64,000 nucleotides of DNA from Kangiella taiwanensis (GTDB lineage Bacteria; Pseudomonadota; Gammaproteobacteria; Enterobacterales; Kangiellaceae): the NCBI RefSeq assembly GCF_020005165.1, contig NZ_JAHCLT010000002.1, positions 496,001-560,000 on the forward strand, in the 5' to 3' direction. Below, in pieces: positions 40,960 to 47,583 of this stretch. The translations under genes were made by a program, and so were the position numbers. A model generated the notes under the pieces. That model had not been told where the DNA came from, searched no databases, and saw only the letters and a program-made list of their open reading frames with translations. Position 1 is the first letter of the stretch. Each line of letters begins with the position of its first letter.

Positions 40960-41910
40960 ATGAATTACAAAGAGATTTTCGAACAAATCAGCGACGAACT
41001 GAACGATTTTGACGAAATAGGACAAGTTGCGACCTATATTCCGGCCTTGGCAAAGGCTAACCCCAATAAGTTTGGTATGTATTTGGTGACCGAAGAAGGT
41101 CACGAATACGACCATGGTGATGTTGATGAAAACTTTTCCATCCAGAGTATTTCTAAAGTTCTATCACTTGTCTACGCTTTCAAGTTAGTAGGTACTGACT
41201 TATGGAAACGAGTGGGGGTCGAACCATCAGGCAGCCCCTTTAACTCATTAGTGCAGCTTGAATACGAACAAGGGGTCCCTCGTAACCCGCTCATCAATGC
41301 TGGAGCCATTGTCGTTTGTGACATTCTGGTAAGTCAGCTCGATAACCCATACCAAGACTTTATTCAGTTCGTTCGTAATTTAGCAGGTAACCCAAACATC
41401 GATTACTGCAAAGAAACAGCTGAGTCCGAAAAAGAGTGTGGCTTTAAGAATAATGCTCACATCAATCTAATGAAGTCTTACGGCAATATCGATAACGACG
41501 TTGAGGAAGTCCTCGATTTATACTTCCACCTTTGCTCTATCGAAATGTCATGCAAAGATCTGGCGCAAACCTTCATGTTTCTGGCCCGAGGCGGAAAAAA
41601 TCCGCTCAATAATGAACGTATACTGACCGCACAAGAAACGAAACGTATCAACGCCATAATGTTGCTCTGCGGTTTTTATGACGAAGCGGGCGAATTTGCC
41701 TTTAAAGTCGGGCTACCAGGCAAAAGTGGCGTTGGTGGCGGTATTGTTGCCATTTACCCCGACCAATACAGTATCGCCGTGTGGAGTCCTGGTTTAAACA
41801 GCAAAGGTAATTCCAGCAAAGGCATTAAAGCCCTGGAAATCTTTACAACGATTACTCAATCCAACGTTTTCGGGCCTTCGCCAATCTTCGACGAACTCGA
41901 ATACGAATAG
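40960..41910 (+). CDS. glsA: Glutaminase
   Basis: Serine-dependent beta-lactamase-fold glutaminase, converting glutamine to glutamate and ammonia. The 316 residues show the catalytic S63-I-S-K66 (FSIQSISKVLSL), RNPLINAGAI with the substrate-binding Asn, and the C-terminal GLPGKSGVGGGI loop. It is the first gene of the accessory block between mraZ and rsmI and seems to be transcribed alone. Enterics use such enzymes for acid resistance; the role here is not shown by context. Confidence 0.93.
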   Translation: MNYKEIFEQISDELNDFDEIGQVATYIPALAKANPNKFGMYLVTEEGHEYDHGDVDENFSIQSISKVLSLVYAFKLVGTDLWKRVGVEPSGSPFNSLVQLEYEQGVPRNPLINAGAIVVCDILVSQLDNPYQDFIQFVRNLAGNPNIDYCKETAESEKECGFKNNAHINLMKSYGNIDNDVEEVLDLYFHLCSIEMSCKDLAQTFMFLARGGKNPLNNERILTAQETKRINAIMLLCGFYDEAGEFAFKVGLPGKSGVGGGIVAIYPDQYSIAVWSPGLNSKGNSSKGIKALEIFTTITQSNVFGPSPIFDELEYE

Positions 41911-41934
41911 AGACACGTGAATTCGTAACCCAAC

Positions 41935-41952
41935 TGTAGTCGATCTCTCACA
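41935..41952 (+). promoter_or_regulatory. GacA/UvrY-like upstream box
   Basis: TGTAGT-N6-CTCACA resembles the TGTAAG-N6-CTTACA element bound by GacA/UvrY upstream of CsrB/RsmZ-type RNAs (4 of 6 and 5 of 6 matches). It lies about 60 bases before the likely RNA start. An A+T-rich -10 candidate (TATTAT/TAAATA) lies at 41991-42002. Confidence 0.5.
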
Positions 41953-42004
41953 AAAGCTTCATCGAATACACCTAGTTTGTCACCTCTGTTTATTATTAAA
42001 TAGC

Positions 42005-42200
42005 ACTGAACCGACGGAATGGTTCTGCTCTTAAGGACGAGAGTATCAGGGACACCTCAGGAAGAGGTTTTAATGGACCGTCTCAGGAAGAGACAATATT
42101 CTAAGGAAAGAAGGCTCAGGATGAGCATGTTGATGAAAAGGGAATGGCACAGGACGTGCTACTTCCCTTTCAACATCCTTCCCAGTAGCAAAAACCTAAC
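42005..42200 (+). ncRNA. CsrB/RsmZ-type CsrA-sequestering RNA
   Basis: About 200 bases with at least ten GGA motifs, most placed in hairpin loops. Stems: GAACC/GGTTC (42008-42025, loop with GGA), CTCT/AGAG (42028-42043), ACCTC-AGGAA-GAGGT (42054-42068), GTCTC-AGGAA-GAGAC (42080-42094), TTCT/AGAA (42099-42112), GCTC-AGGAT-GAGC (42114-42126), and a long arm AAAGGGAA/TTCCCTTT (42137-42170) topped by GCAC-AGGAC-GTGC. Four loops match the CAGGA consensus for CsrA. Such RNAs titrate CsrA/RsmA. The 3' end is uncertain because no T-run follows; further GGA motifs occur at about 42201, 42213 and in the next ribosome site. Translated as protein the region gives only a meaningless Arg-rich frame. Confidence 0.78.
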
Positions 42201-42236
42201 GGATGTATTAACGGAAACAACGAAAAGGACTTTACT

Positions 42237-42467
42237 ATGGCGATCAAGCTGATTCAAAAATACCAAGGCTGGTGGGACTCTAGCCAAAACCGCGGCCACT
42301 TCTGGTTTACCTATTACGATAACACTCGCGAACGAAGCGTTTATGTCAATGCAGCAGAGTTCCAGATCATGATGGATATGCTACGCAACGAAAAACCTGT
42401 CTACGGCGACCATACTCGCGCCCTAGTCACTACCCAATCTGAAGAAACGGGTGAAGAAGAATCGTAA
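42237..42467 (+). CDS. Small hypothetical protein, 76 residues
   Basis: Unrecognised. The ribosome site AAAAGGAC lies 8 bases before the ATG and is itself a GGA motif, so translation may be controlled by CsrA. The protein is aromatic in its first half (WW, FWFTYY) and acidic at the end (SEETGEEES), with no signal peptide or membrane segment. It reads well as a real gene: good start, intact frame and a terminator afterwards. It directly follows the CsrB-like RNA with no terminator between, so the two may share one transcript. No function is assigned. Confidence 0.7.
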   Translation: MAIKLIQKYQGWWDSSQNRGHFWFTYYDNTRERSVYVNAAEFQIMMDMLRNEKPVYGDHTRALVTTQSEETGEEES

Positions 42468-42537
42468 TCGAACCCCCTAATCGAAACAATTGTTGAAATC
42501 ATAGTTAACTAATTCTTACTCAGCTTTACTTCAGTGT

Positions 42538-42613
42538 AACAGCCAGCGCAGTCTTCTAACCAAGACACTGACTACCCCTTAGTAACCCTTCGCGCTGGCT
42601 GTTTTTTGTTTTT
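42538..42613 (+). terminator. Terminator with a long branched loop
   Basis: AACAGCCAGCGC (42538-42549) pairs perfectly with GCGCTGGCTGTT (42592-42603), followed by T6-G-T5. The 42-base apical region contains its own small stem (GTCTT/AAGAC), unusual for a simple terminator. It would end the RNA/small-gene transcript. Confidence 0.75.
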
Positions 42614-42700
42614 ACCCAACACCACTTTGATACAATCCCTATTTGCTAAACCAAACCTGCTCAGGCAAACTAATCACAACCTAATAAAGCTGACGCTGTC

Positions 42701-43228
42701 ATGAGCAACAGACAACTCGAACACGCCGATCACTTAGAAAACAAAAACACAAAAAAGAAAGGCAATCGCCAGATCAGTCTACTTGCACACAACATCACCG
42801 TACCCATGAACGTCGGCAGCCTCTTCCGTATTTCGGACGCACTCGGTGTCGAAAAAATCTACGTATCAGGCGACACACCGATTCCGCCTAATAATAAGAT
42901 CCGCAAAACCTCACGCAGCACAGAAAAATATGTGCCCTATGAAACAGTAGAAAACCTTGTTGAATTAATAAATAGACTAAAAGAAGAAAACTACACCATC
43001 ATCGCCCTCGAAATCACCAGTGACAGCGTTCCATTACAAGAAATACAACTAGGAAAAACTCAGAAAGTTTGCCTCATACTCGGCTCAGAAAATACTGGCG
43101 TCAGCGAAGAGTTACTCAAGCTATCAGACATCACCACCCACATCCCCATGCTCGGCCACAACTCCTCCATGAATGTCGCGACGGCTTGTGGGATAGCGGT
43201 TTATAGTCTTACTTTAATCAATAATTAA
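42701..43228 (+). CDS. SpoU/TrmH-family RNA 2'-O-methyltransferase
   Basis: SPOUT methyltransferase of 175 residues that should methylate a ribose in tRNA or rRNA. Motif 1 NVGSLFRISDALG, motif 2 LILGSENTGVSEELL and motif 3 IPMLGHNSSMNVATACGIAVY form the knotted SAM site. There is no extra substrate-binding domain, so the target cannot be assigned; TrmL- or TrmH-like are options. Codon use looks richer in AAA, ATA and AGA than its neighbours, a possible sign of transfer (by eye only). Confidence 0.88.
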   Translation: MSNRQLEHADHLENKNTKKKGNRQISLLAHNITVPMNVGSLFRISDALGVEKIYVSGDTPIPPNNKIRKTSRSTEKYVPYETVENLVELINRLKEENYTIIALEITSDSVPLQEIQLGKTQKVCLILGSENTGVSEELLKLSDITTHIPMLGHNSSMNVATACGIAVYSLTLINN

Positions 43229-43241
43229 TTTTAGATGTTCA

Positions 43242-43684
43242 TTTTCTTTGTTTGCCCAAAGAAAACGAACCAAAAGAAAAGGCACCCCAGATCGTTAGGT
43301 CCTTCGGACTTCCCTCGCTCATCAAAGTTACATACGCGTCGTCAAACGAAACGTCCTTGTTTCGTCTTAGCTAAATTAGGCTCCATGCCTAATTTACGCT
43401 ATAACTTTTTCTCTCTCGGCTAACTTTAAGGGGGTATTAACAGCACAAGCCTGCACAAATTTCCCCTTATATTGAGCTGTGCTATTTACAAAATATAGCA
43501 AACCAAAATCGTGGATGATTTTGGTAAGAGTTTTCAGCACAAGGAAGTGCTGTAAACTCTGATGCGTTAAGTATTTTGGAAATAGAGCAGGAAGTCATGT
43601 TCACATGACCTCAATATCGGGGCGTGTTTCTTTTTGGTCACTTTTTCTTGCTCGCACAAGAAAAAGTGACTCGCCGAGGGGCGA
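43242..43684. repeat. Array of palindromes (possible nonautonomous element)
   Basis: The trmH-rnpB spacer holds a chain of hairpins with loops mostly of 5-6 bases: TTTTCTTTG/CAAAGAAAA (43242-43265), ACGAAAC/GTTTCGT (43346-43365), TAAATTAGGC/GCCTAATTTA (43372-43396), ACCAAAATC/GATTTTGGT (43502-43525), AGAGTTT-T-CAGCAC/GTGCTG-T-AAACTCT (43527-43560), GTCATG/CATGAC (43594-43609), a 14-base perfect stem at 43637-43670 (GTCACTTTTTCTTG left arm) and TCGCC/GGCGA (43671-43684). The two ends share an ACCAAAA(A)GAAA...CCCC segment in opposite orientation, like diverged terminal inverted repeats. No credible gene lies within. Confidence 0.65.
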
Positions 43685-43783
43685 AATAGATTGCTAATAA
43701 TATAACTAGATTCCAAGTTACCTAAAGGTATTGCCATTGGCCACAGTTTGGAATGACAAGAAAAGTCAGAAGGAAGAAAAAGA

Positions 43784-44133
43784 AAAGCTGGCCGATAAGC
43801 CGGATTCTGTCGTGGACAGTCATTCGTCTAGGCCACCAATCGCTCGATGGCTCCAGCAACCTACCCGGTTCCAACGCGAGCAACGCCGTACGGAACCCTA
43901 TTTGGTCTTGCTTCGGGTGGGGTTTACCTCGCCGCTTACTGTTACCAGAAGCGCGGTGCGCTCTTACCGCACCATTTCAACCTTACCTGCTCCGAGGAAC
44001 ATAGGCGGTATATTTTCTGCTGCACTTGCCGTCGGCTTGCGCCGCCCAGGCGTTACCTGGCACCCTGCTCTGTGAAGTCCGGACTTTCCTCTCCCTATGA
44101 AAATCATAGGCAGCGACTGTCTGGCCAGCTTTG
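43784..44133 (-). ncRNA. rnpB: RNase P RNA, bacterial type A
   Basis: Catalytic RNA of RNase P, which matures tRNA 5' ends. On the minus strand the RNA opens with AAAGCTGGCCAGACAGTCGC and ends with the universal ACAGAATCCGGCTTATCGG then CCAGC, closing helix P1 (GCTGGCC with GGCCAGC). The P4 strand and conserved region GAGGAAAGTCCGGACT is near 44085. Length about 350 bases is typical. A pyrimidine-rich tract (TTTTCTTTTTCTTCC) follows. In Pseudomonas rnpB also lies between mraZ and rsmI. Several open frames here are artefacts. Confidence 0.95.
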
Positions 44134-45735: not shown

Positions 45736-47583
45736 ATGACAAAAAAGTCCTTTAACAAGAACCTATCATTAGCGATTTGTAGCTTTTTAGTCGTTTCTTG
45801 TGTCACGACTCAACCTCGTCAGTCAACGTCAGACGATGGTATTCGTGATCGTGTCGCGCAGTCGCCCGACTTTTATTTACAGCAAGCTGAGCAACAACAA
45901 GGAACGGCTCAATCACCTTTTAAGCTCAAAGCGGCTATTGCATACCAAGAAATGGGCCAGCCAACAGAGTCTTATGCCCTATTACGCAGCTTTCAGCCAA
46001 CCGAGCTTCCAGCCGATGAGCGCGATGCATATTACCTCCTACTAGGTGAAGTTGCTTTGACGCAGGATAAGCCTTTTGAGTCTATTCGTGCGCTACAGTC
46101 TATCGGCAATCCTCAAACCCATAGCCAAAACTGGCAAGCCCACTACGCCAAGACGCTTGCGGATAGTTTGGCGGCTAACAACCGACTGGCTGATGCTGCG
46201 GTTGTACGCTTAAAAGCGGAGCCTCTGATAGAAGATTATCGGATCCTTGAATCACAATTCGAGAAAGCATGGCAGGAGTTATTAGCTTCACCTGTAGGTG
46301 CCATCGAGCTTAAACGATCGCGTGCTTCAGATCACAACATTCTTGGTTGGTTAGACATGGCGATTATCCGTCATCGTTATATGCGAAACGCTTCGAATAT
46401 GTCGGTCGCCATGGAAGAGTGGTCACAAATCTATCCTGAACATCCTGCGATTGATTATCTTGATATGAGTCAAATGGGCTCGTTTGACTTCACAATATCA
46501 GCTCCAACAAAGATCGGTTTGTTCGTGCCATTATCCGGCAACCTAGCACCAGTTGGCCAACTAATACGAGATGGCTTCATGGCTGGCTATTATGAGCAAG
46601 CCATCACTGCTGAGTCTGCGGACGTGGTCGTTTATGATACTCACGGTATTGATATGCAAACCCTCTACCAAAGAGCTTTTGAAGAAGGTGTGGACTTTGT
46701 GGTGGGGCCATTACTTAAGTCCAATATGGAAGACTTAGCGGCACAGCCGAGTTTACCTATCCCGACACTGGCGCTAAACCGCTTGGACTCACACTATATC
46801 CCGAGCAACTTTTTCCAGTTTGGCTTACCGATAGAAGATGAGGCGCGACAAATTGCACGCCACGCCATGCGCCAAGGGCAAGACAGAGCGTTTGTTATCA
46901 ACGCAGACTCATCACTAGGTAAACGTGCAGTCGAAGCGTTCACACAAGAGTTTGAGCAAATGGGGGGTTACATCGTTAAAGTAGCCAATATCTCACACAA
47001 CCAAAACGTAAAAGCTGCAGTCATGACCATGCTCGGAGCTGATCAAGCTGAAAAGCGCGCGCAAGATCTGCAAAATTTCCTCAACGTACCTATTGAGGCC
47101 AGTGGGCAAGGCTCCGCTACAGCCGACTTTATTTTCCTCATATCAAAAGTCGACAAAGCTAGAATTATTAAGCCTTATTTGAATTACTATTACGCCTACG
47201 ATTTACCGGTGTACGCGACTTCAAACGTCTACGAAGGATACACCAACCCGACTCGCGACAATGACTTGGATGGTATTTCGTTTACCGACGCCCCTTGGAT
47301 GTTAGGTAGTACTGAGTCCATCAAAGACAGTCGTACAAAAATGAATCAATTAGTTCCAAACTCAACTGGAACCTTGGCACGTTTCTTTGCTTTGGGCCAC
47401 GATGCTTACGCTATCATCCCTCAATTAGCTGAATTTGCTCAAAACCCCAACCATTTTATAGAAGGCTTGTCCGGCACTTTGAGTATGGACTCTTATGGTC
47501 AATTTATACGACAACTGTCTTGGGGAATGTTCAAGAACGGCAAGATGATACCAGTTAGTGTGCAAACGAGCTTGGACCGGTAA
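45736..47583 (+). CDS. lpoA: Outer-membrane lipoprotein LpoA, activator of PBP1a
   Basis: Outer-membrane lipoprotein that reaches through the periplasm to stimulate the glycan synthase PBP1a. The 615 residues begin with a lipoprotein signal (LVVSC, Cys22), then a helical TPR-like N-domain (about 45-240) and a periplasmic-binding-protein-like LppC domain (from KIGLFVPLSGNLAPVG). It is the first gene of lpoA-yraN-diaA-dolP. Confidence 0.95.
   Translation: MTKKSFNKNLSLAICSFLVVSCVTTQPRQSTSDDGIRDRVAQSPDFYLQQAEQQQGTAQSPFKLKAAIAYQEMGQPTESYALLRSFQPTELPADERDAYYLLLGEVALTQDKPFESIRALQSIGNPQTHSQNWQAHYAKTLADSLAANNRLADAAVVRLKAEPLIEDYRILESQFEKAWQELLASPVGAIELKRSRASDHNILGWLDMAIIRHRYMRNASNMSVAMEEWSQIYPEHPAIDYLDMSQMGSFDFTISAPTKIGLFVPLSGNLAPVGQLIRDGFMAGYYEQAITAESADVVVYDTHGIDMQTLYQRAFEEGVDFVVGPLLKSNMEDLAAQPSLPIPTLALNRLDSHYIPSNFFQFGLPIEDEARQIARHAMRQGQDRAFVINADSSLGKRAVEAFTQEFEQMGGYIVKVANISHNQNVKAAVMTMLGADQAEKRAQDLQNFLNVPIEASGQGSATADFIFLISKVDKARIIKPYLNYYYAYDLPVYATSNVYEGYTNPTRDNDLDGISFTDAPWMLGSTESIKDSRTKMNQLVPNSTGTLARFFALGHDAYAIIPQLAEFAQNPNHFIEGLSGTLSMDSYGQFIRQLSWGMFKNGKMIPVSVQTSLDR

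Follow-up and report, generated by a model that had tools for sequence, protein, structure and literature searches.

The plus-strand segment from 42008 to 42176 of the window, that is, of the 64,000-nucleotide stretch of Kangiella taiwanensis DNA analysed here, very probably encodes a CsrA-soaking RNA of the known CsrB/RsmZ kind that is activated by UvrY (we put the probability at roughly 85%), and it is one of three Csr-type candidates in this 2.56-Mb genome (G000). The more novel point is the arrangement around it, as a conserved gene for a small protein lies directly 3' of the RNA and no obvious stop signal separates the two, which is unusual. The locus also appears to extend beyond the feature originally described in an earlier note on this DNA and to include an upstream activator-like site, a 76-aa ORF and a terminator (Table 1).

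According to the proposed mechanism, a UvrY/GacA-type response regulator would bind the near-palindrome at 41935-41952 and so switch on transcription from about position 42005, and the seven GGA hairpins of the resulting RNA would bind CsrA dimers. A CsrA-dimer site comprises about two GGA hairpins, and seven hairpins would therefore sequester a few dimers; while the two-component system is active the RNA would draw these off their mRNA targets.

Table 1. Features of the candidate CsrA-titrating locus, its neighbours and related RNAs. Positions are those of the window unless a contig (C) of the genome is given.
Feature	Position	Strand	Remarks
Glutaminase gene (Pfam PF04960)	40960-41910	+	upstream neighbour
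Candidate UvrY/GacA site, near-palindrome TGTGAGAGATCGACTACA	41935-41952	-	centre about 65 nt upstream of first hairpin
Possible -10 region TTATTATTAAAT	41990-42001	+	similar T/A block here in 7/7 loci
CsrB-like RNA domain, seven GGA-loop hairpins	42008-42176	+	fold, hairpin test, Rfam CsrB 34.6 bits, covariation
Individual hairpins	42008-42025, 42026-42045, 42054-42068, 42080-42094, 42099-42112, 42114-42126, 42127-42176	+	
Long 3' hairpin, AGGA in apical loop	42127-42176	+	no U-run after it; three helices with 100% paired cells in 7 sequences
ORF, 76 aa (stop included), SD-like AAAAGGA	42237-42467	+	in 6/20 Kangiella genomes
Intrinsic terminator CAGCCAGCGC ... GCGCTGGCTGTTTTTT	42540-42607	+	first one downstream of the RNA
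SpoU-type methyltransferase gene	42701-43228	+	downstream of the 76-aa ORF
TwoAYGGAY RNA (RF01731)	43470-43597	+	51.5 bits, above cut-off
Core Csr-type RNA, own terminator	G000:C1:535148-535287 (L092:1501-1640)		model R1
Third Csr-type candidate, 8 GGA, terminator GCGGC..GCCGCTTTTATTTT	G000:C3:524484-524646 (L146)	-	

The GGA hairpin array and its conservation

The sequence at 42005-42200 on the plus strand agrees with the description given in the earlier note, which had reported ten GGA motifs within about 155 bases; the number was right and the span is 139 bases (starts at 42016, 42035, 42050, 42060, 42075, 42086, 42105, 42119, 42141 and 42152, with the last motif ending at 42154). The minimum-energy fold places seven of the ten in hairpin loops, in line with the claim that at least seven are presented in this way, and the four stem-AGGA-stem units quoted at the time are all found exactly as quoted, together with a fifth perfect unit, TTCT-AAGGAA-AGAA. 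When GGA hairpins were defined by a loop of 3-7 bases that contains GGA and a perfect closing stem of at least 4 pairs, five motifs qualified, a number reached by 0 of 2000 dinucleotide shuffles (mean 0.35, maximum 3). Scanning both strands of the 64 kb in 12762 segments of 196 bases (step 10) yielded 16 segments with at least 4 such hairpins, all of them at this locus. The raw count of GGA is only modestly above chance (shuffle mean 6.9, SD 1.7; ten reached by 115 of 2000), and the signal therefore lies in the placement of GGA in hairpin loops and not in the number of GGA. The predicted fold of 42000-42250 has an energy corresponding to z = -2.83, and 2 of 200 shuffles were as stable.

The direct neighbours of the array are the glutaminase and SpoU-type methyltransferase genes, and the placement in an mraZ-rsmI interval given in the earlier note was not upheld, as mraZ and rsmI lie farther away. 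A class A RNase P RNA is encoded at 43780-44132 on the minus strand (342 bits). Seven of 20 Kangiella genomes (G000, G017, G019, G021, G022, G033 and G034) have the RNA in the corresponding position, and all of them keep the gene order glutaminase, RNA, ORF (where present) and methyltransferase; this restricted occurrence counts against the proposed assignment. R2, a covariance model built from the RNAs of these seven genomes, necessarily recovers its own seven sources (E <= 8e-36) and finds none in the rest of the 20-genome genus set. Three more Kangiella genomes possess the glutaminase gene (G018, G026 and G028), and R2 detects no RNA there; neither the ORF nor the methyltransferase gene was found near glutaminase in these three (in G028, 733 bases downstream were covered), and in G018 and G026 it is mraZ that adjoins glutaminase. 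Among 20 other genomes of the family, R2 gave two weak matches, in G035 (E 0.0011) and G013 (E 0.0033), of which the former, a purine-rich low-complexity stretch, was rejected as a homologue.

In the alignment of the seven sequences, 14 of 45 pairs are changed on both sides, in 23 cells, compared with shuffled means of 6.4 and 8.2, counts that lean towards the structure inasmuch as it was derived from the same seven sequences. Neither count was reached in any of 500 shuffles, and pairing dropped from 90.3% to 39-48% when the partner was slid by 1-3 columns; one of five covariation measures, that for further pair types, was not significant (48 of 500 shuffles). Because the structure came from the aligned sequences, and because MAFFT alignments misplace hairpins where their number differs between genomes, each genome was also tested singly. 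Between 3 and 7 GGA hairpins were detected per genome, and the observed number was reached by 0 of 1000 shuffles for G000, G033, G019, G022 and G021, by 1 for G017 and by 2 for G034, the weakest cases being G034 (3 GGA hairpins) and G017 (4 GGA hairpins). The stems around AGGA vary (ACCTC/GAGGT, GTCTC/GAGAC, ATCTC/GAGAT, TATTCTC/GAGAATA and others) and change with compensation, and the loops keep their GGA, which bears out the earlier suggestion that selection acts on the loop and not on the stem sequence. The hairpins are thus conserved with covariation in relatives, a point on which the earlier note had made its proposal depend.

A functionless purine-rich stretch of low complexity, or hairpins clustered by chance, would be in keeping with a GGA count that 115 of 2000 shuffles attain, and one weak R2 match at another place (L112) did prove to be purine-rich sequence of this sort. 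Given the excess of hairpins, the covariation and the upstream site conserved in seven genomes, this explanation is highly improbable.

Searching Rfam at gathering scores returned nothing at the locus, and CsrB appears only in an E-value search, in which RF00018 was the best family over the whole domain (E 8.5e-8, 801 bases searched). A comparison with Rfam models had been proposed at the outset, and its outcome is divided: CsrB is the best family match, and the 34.6 bits fall short of the gathering cut-off of 71, so that membership by the curated score failed. At E <= 10, three Rfam matches are listed for 41900-42700, two lower-scoring overlapping matches of the same clan being left out unnamed; matches to P31 (16.9 bits, E 1.9) and to isrN on the minus strand (E 4.7) were taken as chance. 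At E <= 1, CsrB matches nothing else in this genome. For the corresponding loci, RF00018 gave E-values of 3.2e-8 (G017), 6.7e-8 (G000), 8.4e-8 (G022) and 2.3e-7 (G021), with weaker values of 3.9e-6 (G019), 3.2e-5 (G033) and 0.29 (G034), and it exceeded its cut-off in 0 of 20 Kangiella genomes. For comparison, RF00018 was also run on 14 control genomes and gave some match at E <= 1 in five, exceeding the cut-off in one of these. Both the scores below cut-off throughout the genus and the matches in controls count against the assignment to CsrB.

The upstream site and its predicted regulator

The promoters of another Kangiella RNA, the core RNA described below, share two conserved sites, A (like TTGTAAGAGATCGTCCAT) and B (like TTGTAAGAGATCTCTCAA), and a weight matrix for each was learned from 18 promoters of this RNA out of 22 loci. 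Left out were L085 (G026), where the contig is cut, and three loci from outside the genus, those of G012 and G037, in which the two sites are not seen, and that of G015, which belongs to another genus and has similar sites. Each matrix ranks the site at 41936-41953 on the minus strand first among the 127,966 positions of the window, with 18.2 bits for A (next 16.2) and 16.9 bits for B (next 13.7). When the 3.2-kb loci of the seven genomes were scanned, the best A site fell at -72 to -74 relative to the first hairpin in 7/7 (18.2-26.8 bits), always on one and the same strand, and matrix B put the same place first in 7/7, in some of them with a narrow lead (11.9 versus 11.8 in G022). In three glutaminase loci without the RNA, which served as a control, the site A score does not go beyond 6.1-9.1 bits. 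The second-best match for site A in the window (GTGTGAGATATTGGCTAC, 46981-46998, minus strand, 16.2 bits) lies within an ORF at 45736-47583, and no 196-base segment with at least 3 GGA hairpins occurs around it.

The A/B motif resembles UvrY/GacA sites published for csrB of E. coli, given as TGTGAGAGATCTCTTACA, and csrC of Salmonella, given as TGTGAGACATTGACCATT, in the available portion of PMC4682653. When the csrB repeat of E. coli was searched for with a tolerance of 3 mismatches, 41935-41952 was the sole match in the window (0 of 100 shuffles), and the whole genome contains three matches at two places, namely this site and a palindrome at C3:524816 that is counted on both strands. The same search marks the locus in only one of the seven genomes (G000), and a reversed control pattern gives 2 matches in G000, with genus totals of 71 for the csrB repeat and 19 for the control. 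Taken by itself, the csrB repeat therefore counts for little, and it is the matrices that carry the argument.

Both regulators that the proposed mechanism calls for are encoded by the genome, a UvrY/SirA/GacA equivalog with 325 bits (cut-off 280) and CsrA with 120.9 bits (cut-off 73), the latter being a gene whose presence the earlier note had singled out for checking. Transcription probably starts near 42003-42007, to judge from the possible -10 region, and a sigma-70 scan showed no consensus promoter at the locus. The site lies nearer to the RNA than is the case for the core RNA, whose two sites of the UvrY/GacA type have their centres about 167 and 190 nt ahead of it, or for the third candidate, which the palindrome TGTGCGAGATCTCGCACA precedes by 178 nt; a distance of about 183 nt is stated for csrB of E. 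coli in the accessible text of PMC4682653. This short distance, the lack of a sigma-70 consensus and the occurrence of the csrB repeat in 1/7 also count against the main reading.

As to the hallmarks of the CsrB/RsmZ class, GGA is present in hairpin loops beyond chance, also in each of the seven genomes alone; stems covary around a conserved loop GGA, in a structure derived from those same seven sequences; the genome encodes CsrA/RsmA; and an inverted repeat of the UvrY/GacA type occurs upstream, together with a gene for such a regulator, the evidence for this last feature being one of sequence. An own intrinsic terminator behind a non-coding transcript was not seen at the locus, which again counts against the assignment. 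With CsrB as the best Rfam family, although below cut-off, and with the covariation, csrA and the UvrY/GacA-type site and gene, the CsrA-titrating RNA that the earlier note had proposed is supported as a candidate.

The downstream ORF and the mode of action

No run of five T occurs between the last hairpin and the ORF in 7/7 loci, and the first such runs are situated 207-425 bases past the last hairpin, so that transcription would enter the ORF unless it were terminated by Rho or the transcript processed. Both arms of the terminator downstream of the ORF were matched by script in 4/7 loci (G000, G033, G022 and G034), and in the other 3/7, where only the 3' side was compared, a U-run follows a similar 3' arm. 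A terminator-like match at 42145-42161 on the plus strand corresponds to the last hairpin, its tail CTTCCCTTTC being part of a longer stem, and was not counted; three minus-strand terminator-like matches were obtained in the same scan.

The six genomes carrying the ORF all have the RNA too. Strong purifying selection on the ORF is indicated by pairwise dN/dS values of 0.005-0.064 in those 10 of 15 pairs for which dS is finite (synonymous sites are saturated in the other five). No match to its product was found in Pfam or NCBIfam, and the best match in PHROGs reached only E 0.071. Structure prediction yielded a beta-sheet plus helix with moderate confidence (mean pLDDT 71.8, pTM 0.52). Homologues with 38-43% identity exist in cyanobacterial MAGs (Coleofasciculus, Symploca), where the 250 bases upstream contain 8, 2 and 4 GGA and no hairpin array by eye, and this patchy distribution could mean transfer. 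In G022 the ORF is absent, with only a tail-like remnant resembling its last codons recognized by eye, yet its upstream site has the highest A score of the seven (26.8), and the terminator is retained along with five GGA hairpins, a persistence that counts in favour of a CsrA-titrating RNA.

The RNA could act as a separate molecule, released by processing or by Rho-dependent termination, or as the 5' leader of the ORF mRNA. It is conceivable, at somewhat less than even chances, that a complete CsrB-type sponge with seven CsrA half-sites forms the leader of a UvrY-activated small-protein mRNA and is not a stand-alone sRNA, and equally so that one UvrY-activated transcript of about 600 nt has a dual function, titrating CsrA by its leader and encoding the small protein. 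The layout of the locus speaks for such a transcript, with the ORF coming next in 6/7, no U-run intervening, the terminator placed past the ORF and the ORF itself under purifying selection, and there is precedent in mRNA leaders that titrate CsrA, flaA of C. jejuni and fimAICDHF of Salmonella, according to the accessible text of PMC4894983. Against this, the interval from 42176 to 42237 may contain a promoter or a processing site, termination may be Rho-dependent, and G022 dispenses with the ORF. A dual function is compatible with the main reading, and the two do not exclude each other. If the sponge were a leader, a single transcript would free the CsrA regulon and yield a protein whose gene is dispensable in at least one relative.

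The same layout, in which an ORF with an SD-like AAAAGGA follows the hairpins in 6/7 loci without a U-run between and under strong purifying selection, with the terminator coming after it, might also be that of a chiefly cis-regulatory 5' leader, on whose GGA hairpins CsrA would control translation or stability of the ORF mRNA, titration being incidental. Control by CsrA in cis usually needs fewer than seven GGA hairpins, so that the array comprises more than would be required, and the stretch from the last hairpin to the SD-like sequence is poorly conserved. As moreover G022 has lost the ORF and still retains the site, the hairpins and the terminator, a mainly cis-regulatory role seems unlikely, and titration of CsrA is preferred.

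Related RNAs in Kangiella and in other bacteria

Weaker CsrB matches in G030, G027, G025, G029, G028 and G018 were rejected as representatives of the same RNA, since their surroundings showed neither glutaminase nor ORF nor methyltransferase and they differ in sequence and have their own terminator. They constitute a separate core RNA of about 140 nt that is also present in G000. R1, a model of this core RNA built from six genomes, detects it in 19 of the 20 Kangiella genomes (E <= 5.5e-29; six of the 19 being R1's own sequences), the sole miss being G023, a genome that is 55% complete. The best Rfam match of the core RNA is PrrB_RsmZ with 17.8 bits (cut-off 44). It resembles the RNA at 42008-42176 in its upstream sites of the same motif and differs from it in primary sequence, in genomic place and in having an intrinsic terminator of its own. 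For the third Csr-type candidate, no Rfam match was obtained at E <= 1, and a similar layout was recognized by eye in 8 of 9 further loci of the genus (the exception being L138).

With CsrB and CsrC of E. coli (RF00018), the RNA has in common tandem GGA hairpins with variable stems, retained loop GGA and a number of hairpins that varies among relatives, as well as an upstream inverted repeat of the UvrY type, which in G000 is 3 mismatches away from that of E. coli csrB. It is shorter, with about 170 nt against the 356 positions of the CsrB model, and unlike CsrB and CsrC it has no own intrinsic terminator in sight, a nearer activator site and, in 6/7, a protein gene directly 3'. RsmX, RsmY and RsmZ of Pseudomonas (RF00166, clan CL00106) likewise contain several GGA hairpins and are controlled by GacA, a control that is predicted in the case of Kangiella. 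No match to these families is among those listed at the locus, where two overlapping same-clan matches are unnamed, and the weak match to PrrB_RsmZ belongs to the core RNA instead. One genome can hold several Rsm siblings, of which RsmX-2 was found by means of its GacA site (available part of PMC7911923), and sibling csrB copies within one genome are described for Vibrio (available part of PMC6262261). As regards flaA and fimAICDHF, the latter from S. Typhimurium, the part of PMC4894983 at hand indicates that RNA with CsrA sites 5' of a coding sequence can sequester CsrA; the candidate in Kangiella has the same position, and would be co-transcribed with its ORF, and in contrast to the flaA leader, which probably binds one dimer, it would be an array of seven hairpins.

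Sequence drift makes Csr-type RNAs difficult to recognize beyond enterics and pseudomonads, and none of the three candidates in G000 reaches an Rfam cut-off. GGA hairpins combined with a UvrY/GacA-type site reveal such RNAs and provide Kangiella with a testable Gac/Csr circuit, and in the six genomes with the ORF and the one without it, nature itself allows the joining or separation of a CsrA sponge and a protein gene to be compared. Within the literature searched, no publication contains Kangiella together with CsrB, and the one containing Kangiella together with CsrA is a Legionella paper.

The TwoAYGGAY RNA at 43470-43597 belongs to the same clan as CsrB, CL00106, and lies 1.3 kb away from the array, so that the array might be a copy or relative of it. 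RF01731 is absent from the three matches listed at 41900-42700, and CsrB is the only CL00106 match listed there (two lower same-clan matches being unnamed), and as TwoAYGGAY copies are dispersed and have by eye a layout of two hairpins, such a descent is extremely improbable. TwoAYGGAY is represented at E <= 1 by 16 matches in G000 and by 1 to 29 matches in 17 of 20 Kangiella genomes. Twelve copies in G000, compared by blastn, have stretches of up to about 240 bases in common among the matches listed and two GGA hairpins by eye, and TwoAYGGAY thus presents itself as an RNA-like repeat within the CsrB clan that occurs in many copies.
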